Of a stretch of DNA of 26,708 nucleotides, positions 1-22,187 are shown piece after piece. The notes under the pieces are model-generated. The model had not been told where the DNA came from and did not search any database. It worked only from the letters and a program-made list of their open reading frames with translations. Location: positions 1 through 26,708 of the IMG/VR virus record IMGVR_UViG_3300025327_000138; one strand, 5' to 3'. Source of the DNA: a virus. Made by a program: the position numbers and the translations under genes. How positions within the stretch are numbered: the first letter of the stretch is position 1; each line of letters opens with the position of its first letter.

Positions 1-760
1 CGAGGAACCGGGCCACCGTCGCGGAGGCCGGGACCGGATAGATGTCCCGGATGCCCCAGGCGCCCTGTCGGCGGCGCAGCTCTGCCAGCAGGCGCTCGTA
101 GCATTGCCGCACCGTGAGCTTGAGGTCGACGTAGGCATGGGCGAGATCGAGCGCGGCCCAATCTTCAATGGCGGTGAGATCACCGGGAGCCGGGCCGGGC
201 TTGCGGTCGAGCAGGGTGCGGGGGTCGCCGAGCGGATTCGCCGGCGAAACGCTGGCGCGGTATTTGGCCAGCCAGCGCTCGACCGACCGCCCCGAAACTT
301 GGTAGCGCGCCGCCAGCTCGTAGACGAAATCGCGTTTGCGCGCGAAGCCTTGCGCGCGCCAGTTGCCGTTGAGCGTCTCCTGGCAGAGCGCCATGCGGCG
401 GCTCACAACCTCTTTCTGCTCCATCGGAATCGAGAGTGCGGCAATACAGTCGGGCAGGAAGAGATCCTTCTGCGACGGGCCTTCGGATTGACAGGGACCG
501 CTCCCTTGCGGTCGCGGCTCGGATGGTCGCGGCTCGGATGGGCGCGGCTCGGACGCAGACGGCGAAGGGATGCTGGCGAGGCCGCGCTGCAAGCGACGTT
601 GGCGGGCGCGCAGCGAGAGCGATGCGGGATCAATCGAGCCGGCCCCGGGGGCTTCTTCCGGCAGGCGGCGCAGCTCGCCGGATTCCAGGCGGCGGAAGAA
701 GGTGCGCGACGAGATGGCTTCGAACTCCATGACTTCCTCGTCAGTGAGGATGCCGGTCAT
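1..760 (-). CDS. Mu-type phage transposase, N-terminal 253 residues (partial)
   Basis: This would be the DDE recombinase that integrates and replicates the phage by transposition. Only the N-terminal part lies in the window; the catalytic core would lie beyond the left edge. Residues about 105-180 (LCQETLNGNWRAQGF..., then YQVSGRSVERWLAKYR) look like the helix-turn-helix DNA-binding domain of MuA relatives, followed by the usual DPRTLLDRKPGPAPG-type linker. The start is the ATG at 758-760, preceded by GCAGGAGGG, and overlaps the stop of the upstream repeat-protein gene as ATGA. A proline-rich linker (SEPRPSEPRPSEPRP, about residues 70-88) is encoded by a short tandem repeat (498-552) also found in the portal, endolysin and tape-measure genes. 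A transposase of this family is the best fit. The catalytic residues cannot be checked here. Confidence 0.8.
   Translation of the reverse strand, partial: MTGILTDEEVMEFEAISSRTFFRRLESGELRRLPEEAPGAGSIDPASLSLRARQRRLQRGLASIPSPSASEPRPSEPRPSEPRPQGSGPCQSEGPSQKDLFLPDCIAALSIPMEQKEVVSRRMALCQETLNGNWRAQGFARKRDFVYELAARYQVSGRSVERWLAKYRASVSPANPLGDPRTLLDRKPGPAPGDLTAIEDWAALDLAHAYVDLKLTVRQCYERLLAELRRRQGAWGIRDIYPVPASATVARFL
498..552. repeat. Interspersed repeat family E, copy in transposase linker
   Basis: The element starts ACCGCTCCCTTGCGGTC and continues with three units containing GCGGCTCGGA at 15-bp spacing. It is translated in frame as the SEPRP repeats of the transposase. Related copies lie at 3918-3946, 8986-9011 and 21859-21930, all inside genes. 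Confidence 0.75.
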
Positions 761-1539
761 CGAGCAACCCTCCTGCGGCGGGACCACGAATTCTTCATTG
801 CCGCGCGCCGCTTGGCGCGCACCTCGGGATTCGCCCAGGCCGCCTTTTGCGCGGCCCGCAGCTTGGCGCGCGCCTCGGGACGATTCATCGCCGCGCGCCG
901 CTTGGCGCGCACCTCGGGATTCGCCCAGACTGCCTTCATCGCCGCGCGCCGCTTGGCGCGCATCTCGGGATTCGCCCAGACTGCCTTCATCGCCGCCCGC
1001 AGCTTGGCGCGCGCCTCGGGACGATTCATCGCCGCGCGCCGCTTGGCGCGCACCTCGGGATTCGCCCAGGCCGCCTTTTGCGCGGCCCGCAGCTTGGCGC
1101 GCACCTCGGGACGATTCATCGCCGCGCGCCGCTTGGCGCGCGCCTCGGGATTCGCCCAGGATGCCTTCATCGCCGCGCGCCGCTTGGCGCGCGCCTCGGG
1201 ATTCGCCCAGACTGCCTTCATCGCCGCGCGCCGCTTGGCGCGCGCCTCGGGATTCGCCCAGGCCGCCTTTTGCGCGGCCCGCCGCTTGGCGCGCACCTCG
1301 GGATTCGCCCAGGATGCCTTCATCGCCGCCCGCCGCTTGGCGCGCGCCTCGGGATTCGCCCAGGATGCCTTCATCGCCGCCCGCCGCTCGCGGAGTTCAT
1401 CTTCCATGCCCGATTTGCCGCTAAAACAACCGCGGCACATGGGCTCGTCCGCAACCACGACACTGGCTGGCACGCGCCGTGCCCAGCGCTCCCAGTGGGG
1501 CTGGCAGATTGTGGCGGAATGGAGTGCGGTAGAACTCAT
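757..1539 (-). CDS. Tandem-repeat protein with WANPE repeats and N-terminal zinc-binding motif
   Basis: The protein has 260 residues. Residues 1-44 carry C12-x2-H15 and C35-x2-C38, a likely small zinc site. Residues about 50-247 are tandem repeats: nine 17-residue units (consensus RRAAMKASWANPEARAK) and three 13-residue units (RRAAMNRPEARAK), then a partial unit. The repeats are very basic and predicted helical. They resemble the short xxWxNPExRxK repeats found beside nuclease domains in some homing endonucleases (NUMOD3-like), but no nuclease domain is visible. It overlaps the 68-residue gene upstream and the transposase downstream as ATGA, so all three are probably translationally coupled. 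A DNA-binding role in transposition is inferred from charge and position. It lies upstream of the transposase, so it is not a positional match to MuB. Confidence 0.7.
   Translation of the reverse strand: MSSTALHSATICQPHWERWARRVPASVVVADEPMCRGCFSGKSGMEDELRERRAAMKASWANPEARAKRRAAMKASWANPEVRAKRRAAQKAAWANPEARAKRRAAMKAVWANPEARAKRRAAMKASWANPEARAKRRAAMNRPEVRAKLRAAQKAAWANPEVRAKRRAAMNRPEARAKLRAAMKAVWANPEMRAKRRAAMKAVWANPEVRAKRRAAMNRPEARAKLRAAQKAAWANPEVRAKRRAAMKNSWSRRRRVAR
790..1400. repeat. Coding minisatellite, 51-bp and 39-bp units
   Basis: About twelve head-to-tail units make up most of the repeat-protein gene. The long unit is 51 bp and the short unit 39 bp, so the frame is kept. Short units recur in the same neighbourhood (short followed by the AAQKAAWANPE-type long unit), suggesting duplication of larger blocks. 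Copies are nearly identical, which suggests recent expansion. Because units are multiples of 3 with few stops, long spurious open frames appear on both strands here. Confidence 0.9.
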
Positions 1540-1742
1540 TTGCGTGTGGCCTCCGACGCTGAAGCTCTGGAGGCCGGGGCCTCCGGGCGGCGCTCGGCCT
1601 TGCGGAAGTAGATGCGCTTGAACTGCTCGACCGCCACATCGAATTGCTCCTCGGTCTCCGGGAAGGTGATCTGGGCGATGTGGGCGCGGCCCTTGATGAT
1701 TCGTAATCTCAAATGCGGCTTCGCCAGCGGCTTTCTACCCAC
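1536..1742 (-). CDS. Small basic hypothetical protein of the early operon (68 aa)
   Basis: I do not recognise this gene. The start is GTG at 1740-1742, with AAAGGAG seven bases upstream; a longer reading from 1808 would overlap the preceding gene by more than 70 bases and lacks such a site. The start overlaps the upstream stop as GTGGGTAG and its own stop overlaps the next ATG as ATGA. The N-terminal half (KPHLRLRIIKGRAHIAQITF) is basic and probably beta-rich; the C-terminal third is low-complexity with many A, E and R. It probably has an accessory role in replication or regulation, but the sequence does not show which. Confidence 0.6.
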   Translation of the reverse strand: MGRKPLAKPHLRLRIIKGRAHIAQITFPETEEQFDVAVEQFKRIYFRKAERRPEAPASRASASEATRK

Positions 1743-2528: not shown

Positions 2529-2752
2529 CAGGTTATCTTTGCTAATTGGCCCTGGATGTACTTTCGGAGGCCCCCATGAATCCTTCGCGAAACAGCCTCG
2601 CCATGAAATACCCGGCTAGCGGTGCTGCGGTTGACGTGATACCGGCGGGCCACAATGGAAAGCAAGCCCGGAAACCGCCGGAGAAGCTGCTCCCGCTCTC
2701 TCCGTCTGCCGGGGATCGTGTTAATCTCAGCGTTGCATTGTTGGGACAACAT
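2528..2752 (-). CDS. Ner-like small HTH regulator, first gene of the early operon
   Basis: The 74-residue protein has an HTH at about residues 22-60 (LRRFPGLLSIVARRYHVNRSTASRVFHGEAVS). Size and position match Mu Ner, a Cro-like regulator of the early and repressor promoters (about 75 residues, first early gene, divergent from the repressor). No sequence homology to Ner is claimed. The open frame extends to 2791, but that start lies in the -35 box. With the -10 at 2762-2767, transcription should begin near 2752-2755, so the ATG at 2750-2752 would be at or within three bases of the mRNA end. Translation would then be leaderless, which fits the lack of a ribosome-binding site. Confidence 0.7.
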   Translation of the reverse strand: MLSQQCNAEINTIPGRRREREQLLRRFPGLLSIVARRYHVNRSTASRVFHGEAVSRRIHGGLRKYIQGQLAKIT

Positions 2753-2755
2753 GAT

Positions 2756-2785
2756 GCGGAGAGTGTACGCGGAGACTCTCCGCGT
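2756..2785. promoter_or_regulatory. Operator: 19-bp perfect palindrome plus an extra half-site
   Basis: ACGCGGAGACTCTCCGCGT (2767-2785) is a perfect inverted repeat of 9+1+9 filling the spacer between the -35 and -10 of the leftward promoter. A further GCGGAGA half-site lies at 2756-2762, next to the -10 and transcription start. A repressor or Ner-like protein bound here would block RNA polymerase. Which protein binds is inference. Confidence 0.7.
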
Positions 2786-2791
2786 TGTCAA
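2762..2791 (-). promoter_or_regulatory. Early promoter, leftward (sigma70 type)
   Basis: On the minus strand TTGACA (2786-2791) and TACACT (2762-2767) are separated by 18 bases. It is the best promoter match I found in the window and sits exactly in front of the leftward operon. Confidence 0.75.
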
Positions 2792-2800
2792 GAGGTCTTT

Positions 2801-3265
2801 TTGGAAATTATTACAGCACTCAAATTGCTTCGAAAAAAGCGCGGTTGGACATCGGAGGAATCAATGGCCCGAGCTTTGGGCCTCACTTACGCAGCGGTTT
2901 CGGCATGGCATCGAGGCCGTAACCGGCCCCACCCGGCGATGCTCGATAAACTGGCGGGAATTTGTTCCGGTGACCTCGCGGAATTCTTCCGGCGGGAGTC
3001 GGGCCTGCCTTCGAACGAATCCTTCAAGCCGCGGGCATACAATATCCTGGTGCGGGCGGCGGACATGCTCCTGGAAGCGGCGGAGCGAGGCAACGGAGCG
3101 GCGATGCAGTATCTGGAGCATTACGCGGATGAGATGAACAAGCGGGCGGTGGAGGTGGGGACGCTACCAGCGGAAGCGAATAAGCAACAGCAGGTCCCTC
3201 GTCGTCCCGCAAAGGCGGCGGGCCTCGCTGGGGATGACAAGATAAAGGCAAGGAGGAAGCGATGA
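2801..3265 (+). CDS. XRE-family repressor candidate (phage immunity repressor)
   Basis: The protein has 154 residues from a TTG start at 2801, with AGAGG five bases upstream (2791-2795). Residues 7-55 (LKLLRKKRGWTSEESMARALGLTYAAVSAWHRGRNRP...) are a complete HTH_3 domain. It is transcribed divergently from the early operon and its start lies next to the operator, the classic place for the lysogeny repressor. There is no LexA-like protease domain; residues 75-125 are helical and may mediate oligomerisation. The C-terminus (QQQVPRRPAKAAGLAGDDK...) is encoded by an interspersed repeat (3190-3240). GGAGGAATCAATG gives a good internal start at 2864, but that product would lack helix 1. The open frame upstream to 2546 lies over the opposite HTH gene and is not used here. 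Confidence 0.7.
   Translation: MEIITALKLLRKKRGWTSEESMARALGLTYAAVSAWHRGRNRPHPAMLDKLAGICSGDLAEFFRRESGLPSNESFKPRAYNILVRAADMLLEAAERGNGAAMQYLEHYADEMNKRAVEVGTLPAEANKQQQVPRRPAKAAGLAGDDKIKARRKR
3190..3240. repeat. Interspersed repeat family B, copy in repressor gene
   Basis: The copy begins GCAGGTCCCTCGTC and ends CTCGCTGGGGATGACA with a variable middle. Other copies are at 14834-14890, 16480-16536, 21051-21091 and 23461-23500. It is translated in frame as the repressor C-terminus. Confidence 0.75.
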
Positions 3266-3803: not shown

Positions 3804-4361
3804 ATGACTGAGACCAAGCAATTCCCCATCGGGGCCGCCCTTCGACAAGCTCAGGACAGGCTTGCGACACCTGCCCAACCGCCAAATCCAAATGCGGCCC
3901 CTTTCTCCACAAACAAGCCACCGCTTACTTCCGTGCGCGGCTCGGGGCGCGGCGCCAATCCCGAATCGCGGCCGTCGCTTTTGAATCTGCATCAACTCGA
4001 CCCGCGCGCTGAGGCACTGGCAATCGAATTGCTTCACCGCGCGACGCGCCATCTGGGCTTCGAAATGACTGTTGTGGATGTGCTGCGCACCCCGGCAGAG
4101 CAGGCGCGCAACATCAAGAACGGAGTTTCCTGGACCAGTAACTCATTGCACCTGCCACAACCCTGCTGCGGCAAATCCCACGCCATTGATCTAGCCCCCG
4201 GCCATTTGATGAAGCTCAAAAACTGGGCGCCCTGGCATCCCGACTGGACCAAGCTCGGCGAACTCGGTGAGTCGCTCGGATTCCGCTGGGGCGGGCGATG
4301 GAAAAAGAAACGCGACTGCCCGCATTTTGAGTGGCATGTGCCAAAGGAGTCAACAGCATGA
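3804..4361 (+). CDS. Endolysin, M15-type peptidase
   Basis: This 185-residue protein would cleave peptidoglycan stem peptides at lysis. The M15 signature is visible: S114-L-H116, then A127-I-D129 (KSHAIDLAP), and PHFEWH at 173-178, supplying the expected zinc ligands and catalytic acid. The spacing from H116 to D129 is longer than the usual HxxGxAxD because of an inserted PQPCCG, a variant I have seen in other phage endolysins. Residues 1-60 are low-complexity and partly encoded by two interspersed repeats (3837-3868 and 3918-3946), so the catalytic domain may begin near residue 58. It is followed at once by two lysis-module genes, the first overlapping as ATGA. Confidence 0.8.
   Translation: MTETKQFPIGAALRQAQDRLATPAQPPNPNAAPFSTNKPPLTSVRGSGRGANPESRPSLLNLHQLDPRAEALAIELLHRATRHLGFEMTVVDVLRTPAEQARNIKNGVSWTSNSLHLPQPCCGKSHAIDLAPGHLMKLKNWAPWHPDWTKLGELGESLGFRWGGRWKKKRDCPHFEWHVPKESTA
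3837..3868. repeat. Interspersed repeat family A half-element in endolysin gene
   Basis: CCCTTCGACAAGCTCAGGAC encodes part of LRQAQDRL at endolysin residues 13-20. It matches the first half of family A. Confidence 0.65.
3918..3946. repeat. Interspersed repeat family E, copy in endolysin gene
   Basis: Starts ACCGCTTACTTCCGTGCGCG; the same sequence with one difference begins the tape-measure copy at 21859. It lies in frame in the variable endolysin N-terminus. Confidence 0.7.
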
Positions 4362-7542: not shown

Positions 7543-9582
7543 ATGAGGTTGACGACACTCAACATCGGGTATCGGCCGGAGCGAGCGGCCCTTCGACTCG
7601 CTGCGCTCGCTCAGGACGATGGCGCGGAGATTCGCGCCATCGAGGCGGGAGTGCCGATCCTGTTCCCGAACCAAGGCGGGCCGGATGCCGGATACCGCAG
7701 GCTTTCGCAGTCCCCCAACGTGCGCGACTTGCTGGCGCCGCAGCAGGACCGTATGCAGCGCGTCGCCTATTACCTCTACGTCACCAACAATGTGGCCGCG
7801 CGGTGCGTCGAGATTTTGGTGGACTTCATTTGCGGCGAGGGCGTTAGCGTGGCCGCGGAAGAGCCCGCAGTGCAGGAAACGCTTGACGAGTTCTGGCACG
7901 ATCCCTGGAACGATCTCGACAAATTCGTTCCGCAGATGGTGCAGGGGCAGTCGGTCTTCGGCGAGTCGCTGGTGCAGTGCTACACCAATCCGGTGAGCGG
8001 GCAGGTGCGCATCGCGGATACCGATCCGCTGTGGATTGACGCGGTCGAGTACTCGACGCTCGAAGGCGATCCCGGCCGCGCCACCGGCCCGGCGCTGGCG
8101 GTGGTGTTGAAGCGCGACTACCAAGAAAAGGAAGCCAAGCGGCTGCGCGTGGTGAGCCGCGACGAAGACCCCTTTTCACCGGAGTACGGAATGCTGCGCG
8201 GGGAATGTTTCTACTGGCCGCTGCGCAAGGCGCGCGCGGCTACGCGCGGCATCTCCGACCTGTTCAAAAGCTCCGACCTGGCGGGCGCGCTGGAGCAAAT
8301 GATCTGGGCGGCGGTGCAGCATACCAAGCATCAGGGCGCGTTCATCTGGGACTTGTTATTGCGCGGCGCCACCCAGGAGCAGATTGACGACTGGCTCAAG
8401 AAAAACCCCGCGGGGCCTGCCGCCGCCGGGGTGCGCGTCCACAACGAGAACACGGAATGGAAAGCGGTCTCGCCGCAACTGGCCGCCTCCGAGCAGAACC
8501 GCATGGTGCAGACGGTGAAGTCGATGATCCTGGCGGGATTCGGTTTCCCGCCGCACTGGTTTGCCGAAGGCGGCGACGTGAACCGCGCGACGGCTTTAGA
8601 GATGGGCGATCCGGCGCTCAAGATGCTGACGCGGCGGCAGCGCGACGTGAAGTACCAGCTCGAAGAGATGCTGCGCTACGTGATCAGCGCCAAGATTGCC
8701 GCGGGCGCGCTGCCCGAGAATATCAACCAGGCCTTTGAAGTACAGATGCCGGAACTGTCGGTCAAAGACCAGGGGAAGATTGCGACGGCCTTGTCGCAGA
8801 CGGTGAGCGCGCTATCGCTGGCGCGGGCCGAGGGCCTGGTGGACGAGGAGACCGCGGCGAACGCCCTGGCCATCCAGATCCAGCAGCTGGGCGTGGAAGC
8901 AGACCCCGCGGAGATGCTCCGCAAAGCGCGCGCGGAGAAAGAAGCGGAGCGGGCGCGGGATTACCGGAACCGCAACGACGAACCACCGCTCCCTGGCGGT
9001 CGCGGCTCTGATCTGGAAACCGAGCCGCGCGCGTTGGAGGCTGAGTCCGGGGAGGAAAACGGGCGGTGGGTGACCATCAACGGGACATCCGTGTTCATCG
9101 ACGATTCCGGGAATATCACCAAAGGGCCAGCGGAGTTCGTCGGCAAGAAGCCTGCAGATATTGACGGCGGCGGCAGTAAAGCGGAACGCGATAAGGACGC
9201 TCGGGCTCTACGAGCTAAACGTATGCATGTGCCGGCAACGCGGGCCATGCAGCATCGCGCAGATCGAGAGCAGCGCCGCGTGGCGCAGATCTCTGGCGGG
9301 AAAGAAACGCCGGACAATTCGCCGACTGACGTGATCGTGGGCCGACATGCCATCGAAGTGAAAACGTTGCAGGTCCAGAAAAACGACAAAATCACGATGC
9401 ACCCGGACTCGTTGCGCCGAAAAGAATCATTCGTGCGGAGAAATAAAATGCAAGGGCATACGGTCGTCATCGATGCGCGAGGCTCCCGGCCGCAGTTTTA
9501 TTACCGGGAAGGATTCGGCTCGTTTCGACTGGGCGCAATGGAGGTCGTCAGCCAGGACGAGCTGCGAAGAAAATTCCGATGA
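7543..9582 (+). CDS. Portal protein with fused C-terminal nuclease-like domain
   Basis: The protein has 679 residues. Residues about 30-460 are a portal: it follows the large terminase, and it carries RDLLAPQQDRMQRVAYYLYV, the ring-building core and FGFPPHWFAEGGDVNRATAL. The portal forms the DNA channel at one head vertex. After a low-complexity linker (about 470-505, partly encoded by repeat family E) comes a different domain of about 170 residues: WVTINGTSVFIDDSGNITKG, a basic helix, then DVIVGRHAIEVKT with D596-x8-E605-x-K607, the spacing of a PD-(D/E)xK nuclease site, and MHPDSLRRKESFVRRNK. Toxin-like nucleases fused to portal or MuF proteins are known in phages. The N-terminus also contains a repeat (7588-7620). 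Confidence 0.82.
   Translation: MRLTTLNIGYRPERAALRLAALAQDDGAEIRAIEAGVPILFPNQGGPDAGYRRLSQSPNVRDLLAPQQDRMQRVAYYLYVTNNVAARCVEILVDFICGEGVSVAAEEPAVQETLDEFWHDPWNDLDKFVPQMVQGQSVFGESLVQCYTNPVSGQVRIADTDPLWIDAVEYSTLEGDPGRATGPALAVVLKRDYQEKEAKRLRVVSRDEDPFSPEYGMLRGECFYWPLRKARAATRGISDLFKSSDLAGALEQMIWAAVQHTKHQGAFIWDLLLRGATQEQIDDWLKKNPAGPAAAGVRVHNENTEWKAVSPQLAASEQNRMVQTVKSMILAGFGFPPHWFAEGGDVNRATALEMGDPALKMLTRRQRDVKYQLEEMLRYVISAKIAAGALPENINQAFEVQMPELSVKDQGKIATALSQTVSALSLARAEGLVDEETAANALAIQIQQLGVEADPAEMLRKARAEKEAERARDYRNRNDEPPLPGGRGSDLETEPRALEAESGEENGRWVTINGTSVFIDDSGNITKGPAEFVGKKPADIDGGGSKAERDKDARALRAKRMHVPATRAMQHRADREQRRVAQISGGKETPDNSPTDVIVGRHAIEVKTLQVQKNDKITMHPDSLRRKESFVRRNKMQGHTVVIDARGSRPQFYYREGFGSFRLGAMEVVSQDELRRKFR
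7588..7620. repeat. Interspersed repeat in portal gene N-terminus
   Basis: CCCTTCGACTCGCTGCGCTC followed by GCTCAGGACGATGG mixes the A and B half-elements. It is read in frame as about residues 16-27 (ALRLAALAQDDG). Confidence 0.65.
8986..9011. repeat. Interspersed repeat family E, copy at portal domain boundary
   Basis: CCGCTCCCTGGCGGTCGCGG then CTCTGA matches the transposase copy at 498. It sits in the linker between the portal body and the C-terminal nuclease-like domain. Confidence 0.65.
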
Positions 9583-19005: not shown

Positions 19006-19489
19006 AGACGGCGCTGCGTTGCAGCAATGGCTCCCGATATTTCTGGAGCAGGCGCTCGAATCCGCCCCTCGGCTTCGCTCGGGACGGGATGGCCCATTCG
19101 ACCCTGCTCAGGGCGGTGAGCGAAAGTCGAACCGTGAGCCTGTCGAATCCGCGGAGCGCCCCCGGCGCCCCTCGGCTCCCTTCGGCCTCGCTCAGGACAG
19201 GCCGCTCGGGACCCGAGAGGCTCACGCTCAATGGCGTTCCAACCCTCGCCAGGCGCAAATTCCAGACGCCATCCAGCTGGCCATCGGCCATCTGCTCTAT
19301 CTCGACCTGATGACTCAGGGCGCGCAATTCCGCGCCGGAGAACTGACGGCGGCAGAGGCACTCGGCCTGGGGCTGCTGAAGCTGGCGCGGGAGCGGCTGC
19401 AAAGCCAATACGCCAGATGCGGGCGCTGCGGCGGGCTGAACCGCTCGACGGCCGGCTTCTGCGCGCGGTGCGGTGAGAAGTTCCGGTAG
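18980..19489 (+). CDS. Zinc-ribbon tail-region protein with repeat-derived insert
   Basis: The 169-residue protein starts at ATG 18980, with GGGAGGGACC upstream. The N-terminus (VLAIEDGAALQQWLPIFLEQ) and the part from residue 95 (DAIQLAIGHLLYLDLMTQGA) are helical. The C-terminus is a zinc ribbon: CGRC at 147-150 and CARC at 161-164 with GGLNRSTAGF between. Residues about 28-84 (RLRSGRDGPFDPAQGGERKS ... RPLGTREA) are translated from three adjacent interspersed repeats and interrupt an otherwise plausible 110-residue protein. Zinc-ribbon proteins occur next to chaperones in some phages, but the role here is unknown. Confidence 0.55.
   Translation: MPRAVLAIEDGAALQQWLPIFLEQALESAPRLRSGRDGPFDPAQGGERKSNREPVESAERPRRPSAPFGLAQDRPLGTREAHAQWRSNPRQAQIPDAIQLAIGHLLYLDLMTQGAQFRAGELTAAEALGLGLLKLARERLQSQYARCGRCGGLNRSTAGFCARCGEKFR
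19064..19202. repeat. Cluster of family A and B repeat elements inside a gene
   Basis: Three elements in a row: CCTCGGCTTCGCTCGGGA (19067-19084), family A at 19091-19133 (CATTCGACCCTGCTCAGGGC then GTGAGCGAAAGTCGAAC), and CCCTTCGGCCTCGCTCAGGA at about 19178-19197. The total length keeps the frame. Confidence 0.75.
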
Positions 19490-19583: not shown

Positions 19584-22187
19584 GTGGCCATACAGAAGCT
19601 CCAACTCGCCGTAGAAGTCTCGGAAGACCCGAAGGGTTTCTCCGGGTCGATCCAGCAAGTTGAGCAGCTCGAAGACCGCGTCAAGGCGCTCACCAAAGAT
19701 ACCGTCGAATTGCGTAAGCAGAAAGAAGCCGTGACGGCGCAGCTCCGCGCCTACGACCGGCAGATGGCATCGGGGACACGGCTCACCCAGGAGCAGGGCA
19801 AGCAAGTCGAAGCCCTCACGCTGCGGGAGAGTGAGCTGGCGAACTCGCTAGGGCGCTCGGAATTCAGCTCGCGCACGGCAAGGCAGGAATTGCGCAACCT
19901 GAATTTCGCCGCGAACGATGCCCGCATGGAGGCGCAGCTATTGGCGGCGCAGTTTGGCGTGCATCTTCCAGTCGGTATCGACAAATTGTTGTCGCGCCTG
20001 CCGGCGGTGCAGCAGGGCATCAGCAAGGCTTTCAATGCCGGGATCATGGTGGCTTTCGGGGTGGCTGGCGGACAGGCGCTGGCGCGCCTGATCGTCGAGA
20101 TCACGCAGTTTGACTCCACGCTGCAAGGGCTGAAGCAAACCATCGCGGATGTCTTCAGCCCATTCGAGGCGGCAGCCCGCGGCCTGCACGAGGCGAATGT
20201 CGCGGAGGCCTCGGAAAAGCAGTCACAGCGGGTACTGGCGTCCATCGAGCGGGCGCGCAAGACGCGCGAAGAGACAGCACTGACCGGCCGGGAAGGGACC
20301 GACCTGCTCCGGGCGCAGCAGGCGCAGGCCATCGAGGAGCTGCGCCGCCGCCAGCAGCAGGAGGGCTTGCCGCTCGGCGTGGTGGCGCAGGAAGCCGTCG
20401 CCATCAACCAAAAGTTCGGCGCGGAGATTTCCGCGGCGCTCGCCAAACGCACCGAGGAGTTGCGCAAGCGCGTGGACGCGCTCGAGGAGCAGGAGGCGCG
20501 GCTCGCGGAGCAGGAGGCGCGGCTCGCGGAGCAGGAGCGTAAGACGCTGCTGGGGCCGGGGATCAAGACGGTCGAAGTCGAGGCCGGACTGGGGGCGCAT
20601 CCCGAGGCGGTTGTGGCCGCCGGGGAGCGGATCAAGACCATTGGAGCGACTCAAGCGAAAATCCGGGAGCTGGAAGCGGACGCTGAAGTCGCCCGACTGA
20701 CCGGGAACCAGCGCACCCTGGCCCAGATCGCGCTCCAGGAGCAGCGCCACCTGGCCGAATACCGGAAGCTGCTCGACGAGGGAATCATCTTCCAAAGTGA
20801 ATACGAGCAGGCGCGCACCGCGATTGCCATTGACGCCGAAGGCGAGCGCATGGAGGTCGCGCGGCGGGCGGCGGAGGAGCAGCGCCAACTGATCGAAGCC
20901 ACCGCGCGCGATTGGGAGTCGATGTTCGACCGCATTACCGGCGGCGCGCACAATATGGGCGACGTGCTCGGCAATATCTTCGACGAGATCAAGCGGGCGT
21001 GGAAGCGGCAGATTTTCGAGATGCTGGCGGCGGCGGTTGTTGGCGGAAAAGCAGGTCCCTCGTCGGCGACAGGCGCCTCGCTCGGGATGACAGGCGGCAG
21101 AGGGATACTTGGCAGCATTCTGGGATCGGTGCTTGGAGGGGGAATCGCCGGAGGCGGCCAGGCGGTTGGCGCCGCGACGCCGCCATTCATCCCCAATCAG
21201 TTTGCCGCGGGCACCAGCGCGCTCTCCGGGCTGGGCCTGGCCGGGGCCGGAGGACTAGGCGGCGGCATCTTTGCGGCGGCGGCGCAGCCCACGCAGGCCG
21301 CGGCGATGGGCTTGCCGGCAACCACGCCGATCGGAGATCTGCTGTCGAAGGTTTTCCCGCATTCCATCGGCGGCGTAGGAGGGCCGACGCTGGCATTGGG
21401 CGGGCTGACATTGGCGGGGCTGGGCCTGGGGCATGGCTCCCTGCTCGGCGCGCTCGGCGGCCTCGCTGGCGGCGCGCTCACGGGCTTTGCGGTGGGCGGG
21501 CCGATTGGAGCCATAGTCGGCGGGATCATCGGCGGCATCGCCGGGCTGTTTGGCGGGAACAAGAAGAAGGAATCGGACGCCCGGATCGAAGAGCAAGGCT
21601 TCGCCACGATCAAGCAACTGCTCGAAGAGTACAGCAGGCAGCGCATCGACTATGCCTCGACCTTCGAAGGCTATCAGCAGGTCCATCAGCAGATGCAGGG
21701 GGCCTTCCAGCGGCCACAATCGAAGCGCCACGAGCAGTACTGGTTCGACCAGTACATCAAGCAGCTCCAGGGAATCGAAGACGAGCGCAACCGGCGGCGT
21801 GATTTTCTGAGCGGGTTTGCGGTGCCGGAGTTCGAGAGCGGCGGATTTGTGGACGCCACCGCTTACTCCCGTGCGCGGCTCGGAAACGCGCGGCTCGGAA
21901 ACGCGCGGCTCGGAAACGCGCGGCTCGGATTCGCTGCGGGGGGCGAGGTGCCCGCGATCCTGCACTCGGGCGAGTACGTGATGTCGCGGCCGGCGGTGGA
22001 GCGCTGGGGCGCAGACCTGCTGGCGCGGATGAACTCATCCGAGCCGCGCGGGCAAGCAAGCGGTGGCGACGGCTACGAGATGCATATCTGGGCGCCGTCG
22101 AAGGCATGGGCGGCGAAGGTGGTCGAGGAAGGCCTTGCGGTGGTTATCGGCAAAGGCGGCCGCGCAAGCAAGATGCTGCGCGGGTGA
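19584..22187 (+). CDS. Tape measure protein
   Basis: The protein has 867 residues from GTG 19584. The N-terminal 450 residues are long helices and coiled coils (EQLEDRVKALTKDTVELRKQ; EEQEARLAEQEARLAEQERK). Residues about 480-660 are Gly/Ala-rich hydrophobic segments (LGMTGGRGILGSILGSVLGG; GFAVGGPIGAIVGGIIGGIA). Near the end come the GGEVPAILHSGEYVMSRPAV motif frequent in tape measures and a short C-terminal domain. It sets tail length and helps DNA entry through the host membrane. An interspersed repeat is read in frame at about residues 490-503 (21051-21091), and a four-fold ARLGN repeat at about residues 764-783 (21859-21930). The length predicts a tail of roughly 130 nm if the usual 0.15 nm per residue rule holds. 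Confidence 0.85.
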   Translation: MAIQKLQLAVEVSEDPKGFSGSIQQVEQLEDRVKALTKDTVELRKQKEAVTAQLRAYDRQMASGTRLTQEQGKQVEALTLRESELANSLGRSEFSSRTARQELRNLNFAANDARMEAQLLAAQFGVHLPVGIDKLLSRLPAVQQGISKAFNAGIMVAFGVAGGQALARLIVEITQFDSTLQGLKQTIADVFSPFEAAARGLHEANVAEASEKQSQRVLASIERARKTREETALTGREGTDLLRAQQAQAIEELRRRQQQEGLPLGVVAQEAVAINQKFGAEISAALAKRTEELRKRVDALEEQEARLAEQEARLAEQERKTLLGPGIKTVEVEAGLGAHPEAVVAAGERIKTIGATQAKIRELEADAEVARLTGNQRTLAQIALQEQRHLAEYRKLLDEGIIFQSEYEQARTAIAIDAEGERMEVARRAAEEQRQLIEATARDWESMFDRITGGAHNMGDVLGNIFDEIKRAWKRQIFEMLAAAVVGGKAGPSSATGASLGMTGGRGILGSILGSVLGGGIAGGGQAVGAATPPFIPNQFAAGTSALSGLGLAGAGGLGGGIFAAAAQPTQAAAMGLPATTPIGDLLSKVFPHSIGGVGGPTLALGGLTLAGLGLGHGSLLGALGGLAGGALTGFAVGGPIGAIVGGIIGGIAGLFGGNKKKESDARIEEQGFATIKQLLEEYSRQRIDYASTFEGYQQVHQQMQGAFQRPQSKRHEQYWFDQYIKQLQGIEDERNRRRDFLSGFAVPEFESGGFVDATAYSRARLGNARLGNARLGNARLGFAAGGEVPAILHSGEYVMSRPAVERWGADLLARMNSSEPRGQASGGDGYEMHIWAPSKAWAAKVVEEGLAVVIGKGGRASKMLRG
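21051..21091. repeat. Interspersed repeat family B, copy in tape measure
   Basis: GCAGGTCCCTCGTCGGCGAC ... CTCGCTCGGGATGACA encodes AGPSSATGASLGMT in the glycine-rich region. Confidence 0.75.
21859..21930. repeat. Interspersed repeat family E with four 15-bp units, in tape measure
   Basis: Starts ACCGCTTACTCCCGTGCGCG, then GCGCGGCTCGGAAAC units in tandem. It encodes RARLGNARLGNARLGNARLG just ahead of the C-terminal motif. Confidence 0.75.

Follow-up and report, generated by a model that had tools for sequence, protein, structure and literature searches.

The window analyzed here, 26,708 bases in length, is the whole of IMG/VR record IMGVR_UViG_3300025327_000138, and its base 1 falls inside a gene. 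The left end is occupied by an early operon on the minus strand, in which ORFs of 87, 109, 143, and 68 aa are followed by a repeat gene and the start of a transposase gene (Table 1). To the right of this operon lie a divergent HTH_3 gene, an endolysin-like gene, and then terminase, portal, head, and tail genes. The transposase ORF matches phrog_310 (E 4.4e-8, positions 100 to 239 of 696) and no Pfam family above the cut-off, and on this sequence evidence we assign it as a transposase with moderate confidence. The 68-aa ORF has no family match in Pfam or PHROGs. Elsewhere in the window, the portal ORF (7543-9582, 679 aa) has its best portal-profile match at residues 233 to 471, and the long extension at its C-terminus matches no family. 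Short tandem repeats of 15 bp, GC-rich and with CGCGGCTCGG in common, are found at 510-553 in the transposase ORF and at 21873-21929 in a tape-measure-like ORF, and an interspersed repeat, TTCGACARGCTCAGG, is present in three copies with at most two mismatches (2255-2269, 3841-3855, and 19133-19147), where 0.13 are expected by chance.

Table 1. Features of the early region, in window coordinates
Feature	Position	Strand	Remarks
Mu-type transposase, N-terminal part	2..760	minus	record ends inside gene; ATG overlaps repeat-gene stop
Repeat gene	757..1539	minus	260 aa; ATG start; pI about 12; charge about +52 at pH 7
NUMOD3-like unit array, twelve units and a partial last unit	760..1392	minus	
N-terminal 49 aa, zinc-ribbon-like C-x2-H ... 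C-x2-C motif	1393..1539	minus	pattern at 1418-1506
68-aa ORF	1536..1742	minus	upstream of repeat gene, ATGA overlap; proposed start GTG
phrog_2345-like regulator, 143 aa	1735..2166	minus	member of early operon with repeat gene
Early ORF, 109 aa	2199..2528	minus	weak helix-turn-helix similarity
HTH_3 repressor-like ORF, divergent	2546..3265	plus	start codon uncertain

The repeat gene is a real and intact gene of the early operon. The original prediction described twelve near-identical units behind a C-x2-H...C-x2-C motif and a gene coupled to the transposase, and these are present in the window; it also noted that no nuclease is present. The zinc-like motif (CQPH...CRGC, residues 12 to 38) belongs to a pattern that occurs once in the window and in none of 100 shuffles, while the tandem core pattern of the units occurs five times, compared with none in 100 dinucleotide shuffles. 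The array begins at residue 50 with twelve PE-units, one of 16 aa, eight of 17 aa, and three of 13 aa, and ends in a degenerate thirteenth; the 13-aa unit is four residues shorter than the 17-aa unit and lacks the tryptophan. TRF places the array at 793-1388. The eight full 17-mers are 82 to 100% identical at the DNA level (mean 89%) and 228-nt blocks recur with up to 96% identity, which makes a recent duplication likely. Compared pairwise, the codons of the 17-mers show 45 synonymous and 70 nonsynonymous differences, which represent too few independent events for an inference on selection. At the 3' junction the stop codon of the repeat gene (TGA) and the transposase start (ATG) overlap as ATGA, with AGGAGG upstream of that start; at the 5' junction its own ATG overlaps the TGA of the 68-aa ORF, with GGAGG upstream. 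Because the repeat is free of stops, other frames across the array are open on both strands, and the codon-position GC of the unique N-terminal codons singles out no one frame. The frame is instead set by the gene junctions, by unit lengths that differ by whole codons, and by homologues read in the same frame. Searches of Pfam and PHROGs revealed no nuclease domain in the repeat protein or in nine early-region ORFs, and neither a helix-turn-helix nor a known regulator domain in the repeat protein. Pfam matches to GerD and NPM1-C fell below the cut-offs and were taken as matches to helix composition.

What kind of unit this is can be seen from other phage proteins. The units of the window protein have in common with the NUMOD3-type repeats of phage GIY-YIG and HNH homing endonucleases the core WxNPExR and a spacing of 17 aa. 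A pattern of two WxNPExR or WxDPExR cores at 17-residue spacing, run on the IMG/VR collection, matched 59 stretches. In every one of these the tandem core is read in frame within an ORF, 60 ORFs in total, and together with the window protein these form a set of 61. At E values up to 0.01, Pfam assigned GIY-YIG to 21 members of this set, SegE_GIY-YIG to 8, and NUMOD3 to 6; at E values up to 0.001, PHROGs assigned phrog_22215 to 57 and the homing-endonuclease family phrog_314 to 45. The resemblance to homing-endonuclease repeats that the original prediction had noted is thus borne out by the core, its spacing, and the company that it keeps. The window protein itself matches phrog_22215 (E 2.8e-6, to be read with caution because the query is repetitive), a profile of the same tandem unit for which the PHROG model gives no function. 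An HMM built from 20 double units of other phage proteins scored the window protein at 215 bits, compared with 18 for the best of 1000 composition shuffles. When the core residues used for selection were masked, the score was 37.4 without bias correction (11.5 for shuffles) and 1.2 bits with it (shuffles reach 11.1); since the masked, bias-corrected score is no better than that of shuffles, homology beyond the core and its spacing is not independently proven. Because this control fails and because Pfam NUMOD3 (PF07460) does not match the protein at E up to 1, we call it NUMOD3-like and not a NUMOD3 member; the proteins of L214 (25.8 bits) and L198 (27.5) exceed the NUMOD3 cut-off of 20.4. The alanine-, lysine-, and arginine-rich helices of the window protein are of low complexity, and its sequence matches in the PDB (designed 4D2 proteins at 6e-6, nitrile hydratase at 0.023, and weaker ones) were taken as low-complexity helix matches. 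In five loci (L185, L192, L193, L195, and L217, identified by sequence reading), WxDPE repeats occur in large phage proteins with apparent restriction-endonuclease-like and Mom/GNAT-like parts, and Pfam Mom matches 5 of the 61 proteins.

A tblastn search with the window protein found nothing in 50,697 phage records, and a related-locus search gave eight pattern matches, none of them confirmed. The tandem pattern, which matches the window itself, had no match in 396 acidobacterial genomes or in four genomes of terminase relatives. The same tblastn search with the L214 protein hit 122 phage records, and among the 30 matches listed most carry an annotation as an endonuclease, homing or other. The original prediction also suggested that copy number changes fast, and this stands as a property of the repeat kind. 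L186 and L178 (the latter identical to L197) are identical over 1056 bp except for one 63-bp unit, and L200 and L183 are 91% identical with gaps of 45, 54, and 51 bp. All of these are metagenome contigs, so the difference between L186 and L178 could be an effect of assembly; as sequence comparisons they support unit gain and loss in this kind of repeat.

The AlphaFold2 model of the repeat protein, built from a 9-row alignment, has a mean pLDDT of 90.3 and a pTM of 0.45. A small head at the N-terminus, made up of helices and a hairpin, is followed by one helix per unit, of about 16 residues in long units and 11 in short ones, broken at the N-P step of each NPE. The best structural match in BFVD is an unnamed protein (E 1.4e-6), followed by a phage SP-15 protein labelled Holliday junction resolvase (0.0016) and a GIY-YIG homing endonuclease of Burkholderia phage Maja (0.0031). 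The PDB yielded one weak match, of the N-terminus to the HNH endonuclease of phage GVE2 (5h0m; Foldseek E 8.8, VIA Z 2.2, rmsd 7.9, 50 residues aligned).

Two other phage proteins have the zinc motif at their N-terminus as well. The closest architecture is the 257-aa protein of L214 (IMGVR_UViG_3300043661_000156), in which a cysteine motif of the same spacing at the N-terminus precedes 17-aa units in tandem and in which, as in the window protein, we could find no nuclease domain; the two N-termini align with a local score of 92, compared with 50 for the best of 2000 shuffles. The L214 protein differs in having CxxC in place of CxxH and nine DPEVR units, of the WADPE/LADPE type and all 17 aa long. 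Its phage encodes a tyrosine integrase (phrog_1, E 2.7e-65) and has no transposase beside the gene. The second protein, from L229 (114 aa), has a zinc-ribbon-like domain (CxxHW...PMCxxCxxGK) similar to that of the window protein (score 76; best shuffle 54) and no repeats; its gene is followed by a phrog_503 gene and then by a gene that reads as HNH-like. The zinc pattern with PMC was found in five stretches, these two and L226, L227, and L228. The 51-aa frame of L226 was not counted as a homologue, and the matches in L227 and L228 have no in-frame ORF. The variant without proline was found in nine stretches, seven of them new, and none of the seven has an in-frame ORF with the motif. By sequence reading, further repeat proteins without a nuclease occur in L170 (two, one of them cut), L177, L187, L198, and L216; the repeat proteins of L213, L223, and L224 lie at or near the ends of their loci.

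The original prediction suggested that the protein could coat or bend DNA in transposition or recognize a repeated target. One proposal of this kind is a dedicated transposition factor that coats, bends, or pairs the phage ends or target DNA for the transposase. The ATGA overlap and shared operon fit this proposal, and so does the placement of two nuclease-free repeat genes elsewhere, one between an excisionase-like gene and the integrase gene in L170 and one overlapping the primase gene in L177. The relatives of the window, however, argue against it. Terminase relatives were represented by 80 loci kept of 402 confirmed in genomes and 80 kept of 553 in viruses. Among 167 sequences scanned, only the window, L001, and L002 have at least two units in one frame, and L001 and L002 are the window itself. 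With L001 to L003 and L005 left out as copies, 162 loci were scanned for a Mu-type transposase (phmmer, E <= 1e-5); 51 have one, 29 of these with at least 900 nt upstream, and L006 and L087 are one record. The repeat is present in none of the 51, whereas conservation with the transposase would be expected of a Mu-type transposition accessory factor; absence from relatives with transposition genes, which had been named beforehand as evidence against the proposal, is thus largely what was found. Moreover, in L125, L164, and L131 nothing lies between the transposase gene and the homologue of the 143-aa gene, which overlap or abut directly, and in L006 the two are separated by an unrelated 98-aa ORF; these layouts indicate that the operon is otherwise recognizable and that the repeat gene was inserted into it or replaced another gene. 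The 98-aa ORF contains cysteines, but as a counterpart of the zinc domain it was rejected, its alignment score of 21 being reached by 1011 of 2000 shuffles. Since the nearest architecture also belongs to an integrase phage, we consider a dedicated transposition factor unlikely. The tie of the repeat gene to transposition is positional only; the gene does not look like part of the core transposition machinery but like an accessory that is optional.

The transposase of the window is itself distant from those of the relatives (BLAST E 0.005 to 0.04). With L001 to L003, L005, and L006 left out, phmmer gave no match at 0.01, and neither a related-locus search nor tblastn in phages turned up close relatives of the fragment. 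The fragment had no match in 297 acidobacterial genomes in a run without a positive control, and DDE_2 had none in 11 records, a result that carries no weight, since the control genomes likewise gave no match. Because the window transposase is distant from all those compared and no close relative was found, the role of the repeat protein may be private to this phage.

Some terminase relatives have features of their own. The nearest, L003 (79%), carries a Mu Gam-like gene and an HNH_3 endonuclease gene (L003:853-1431 and L003:3183-4112). Three acidobacterial genome loci without a Mu-type transposase (L007:1-13314, L013:1-21482, and L079:1-8510) contain a packaging/head cluster related to that of the window, with terminases 61 to 66% identical. 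All three clusters sit at one and the same chromosomal position, next to obg- and rplU-like genes, and in L007 and L013 also next to accD-, rlmH-, and rsfS-like genes (names by sequence reading), which makes the cluster a candidate domesticated prophage or gene transfer agent.

A homing endonuclease offers another source for such a protein, which could be the remnant or the DNA-binding half of one, either working, if at all, with a nuclease supplied in trans or, having lost its nuclease domain, in the course of decay. Most proteins with the repeat match nuclease families, and the gene order in L229 shows a zinc domain close to an HNH-like gene. We nevertheless think this improbable, because the early-region ORFs scanned include no nuclease, the ORF is intact with tidy junctions at both ends, twelve in-frame units do not resemble decay, and several nuclease-free forms exist elsewhere. 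That the protein regulates early transcription from promoters of the phage or the host would suit a regulator-rich early operon and the fusion of the repeats to a GcrA-like domain in L216, but with no regulator domain recognized in it by Pfam or PHROGs we hold this to be quite improbable. A DNA-level array of binding sites with an incidental open frame, to which the high DNA identity and the frames open on both strands might point, is highly improbable given whole-codon length differences, ATGA junctions at both ends, and proteins elsewhere that carry the unit in the same frame.

The explanation that we favor, and hold to be somewhat more probable than its negation, is that the gene encodes a nuclease-free NUMOD3-like DNA-binding protein, an accessory of architectural or regulatory kind that the phage can do without. 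It would have been exapted from that half of a homing endonuclease which grips DNA, or drawn from the same pool of repeats. We infer DNA binding, zinc, and a role as follows. The protein, predicted to be a string of about twelve helices, would lie along DNA through these very basic helices with low sequence specificity, capped by a zinc knuckle, and its reach on DNA would change as recombination adds or removes units. Because translational coupling would keep the repeat protein in a fixed ratio to the transposase, it most likely acts early in infection, on phage or target DNA, as an optional accessory. We also speculate, as a rather unlikely extension, that nuclease-free proteins with zinc and NUMOD3-type parts are recurring DNA-gripping cofactors of phages, of adjustable length and in fixed ratio to a DNA enzyme (the transposase here, the primase in L177, the integrase neighborhood in L170), and that the protein of the window steers or tethers the Mu-type transposase. 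Length differs by whole units between otherwise identical alleles, which provides a natural test of whether repeat number tunes DNA binding.

The repeat gene thus belongs to a known kind of repeat, and what is unusual is its setting. Among the titles and abstract openings listed in searches of the NUMOD and homing-endonuclease literature, none describes nuclease-free NUMOD3 proteins beside transposases. In published accounts, NUMODs serve homing endonucleases as modules for DNA binding, and the linker of I-TevI wraps the minor groove (PMC3943268, PMC4065259, PMC11201747, PMC1564403); NUMOD3 or this linker is described as wrapping DNA (PMC11201747, PMC4065259), and a plant gene with a NUMOD3 domain is reported (PMC11201747). 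Our results suggest that the DNA-binding repeats of homing endonucleases can persist without a nuclease and be recruited beside other phage DNA enzymes, including a transposase. The phrog_314-type homing endonucleases with NUMOD3-type repeats are of the I-TevI, Seg, and Mob types. The repeats of these GIY-YIG and HNH enzymes are, like those of the window protein, basic tandem helical units of the WxDPExR type, whereas the window protein has no catalytic domain and its units are richer in alanine and arginine.
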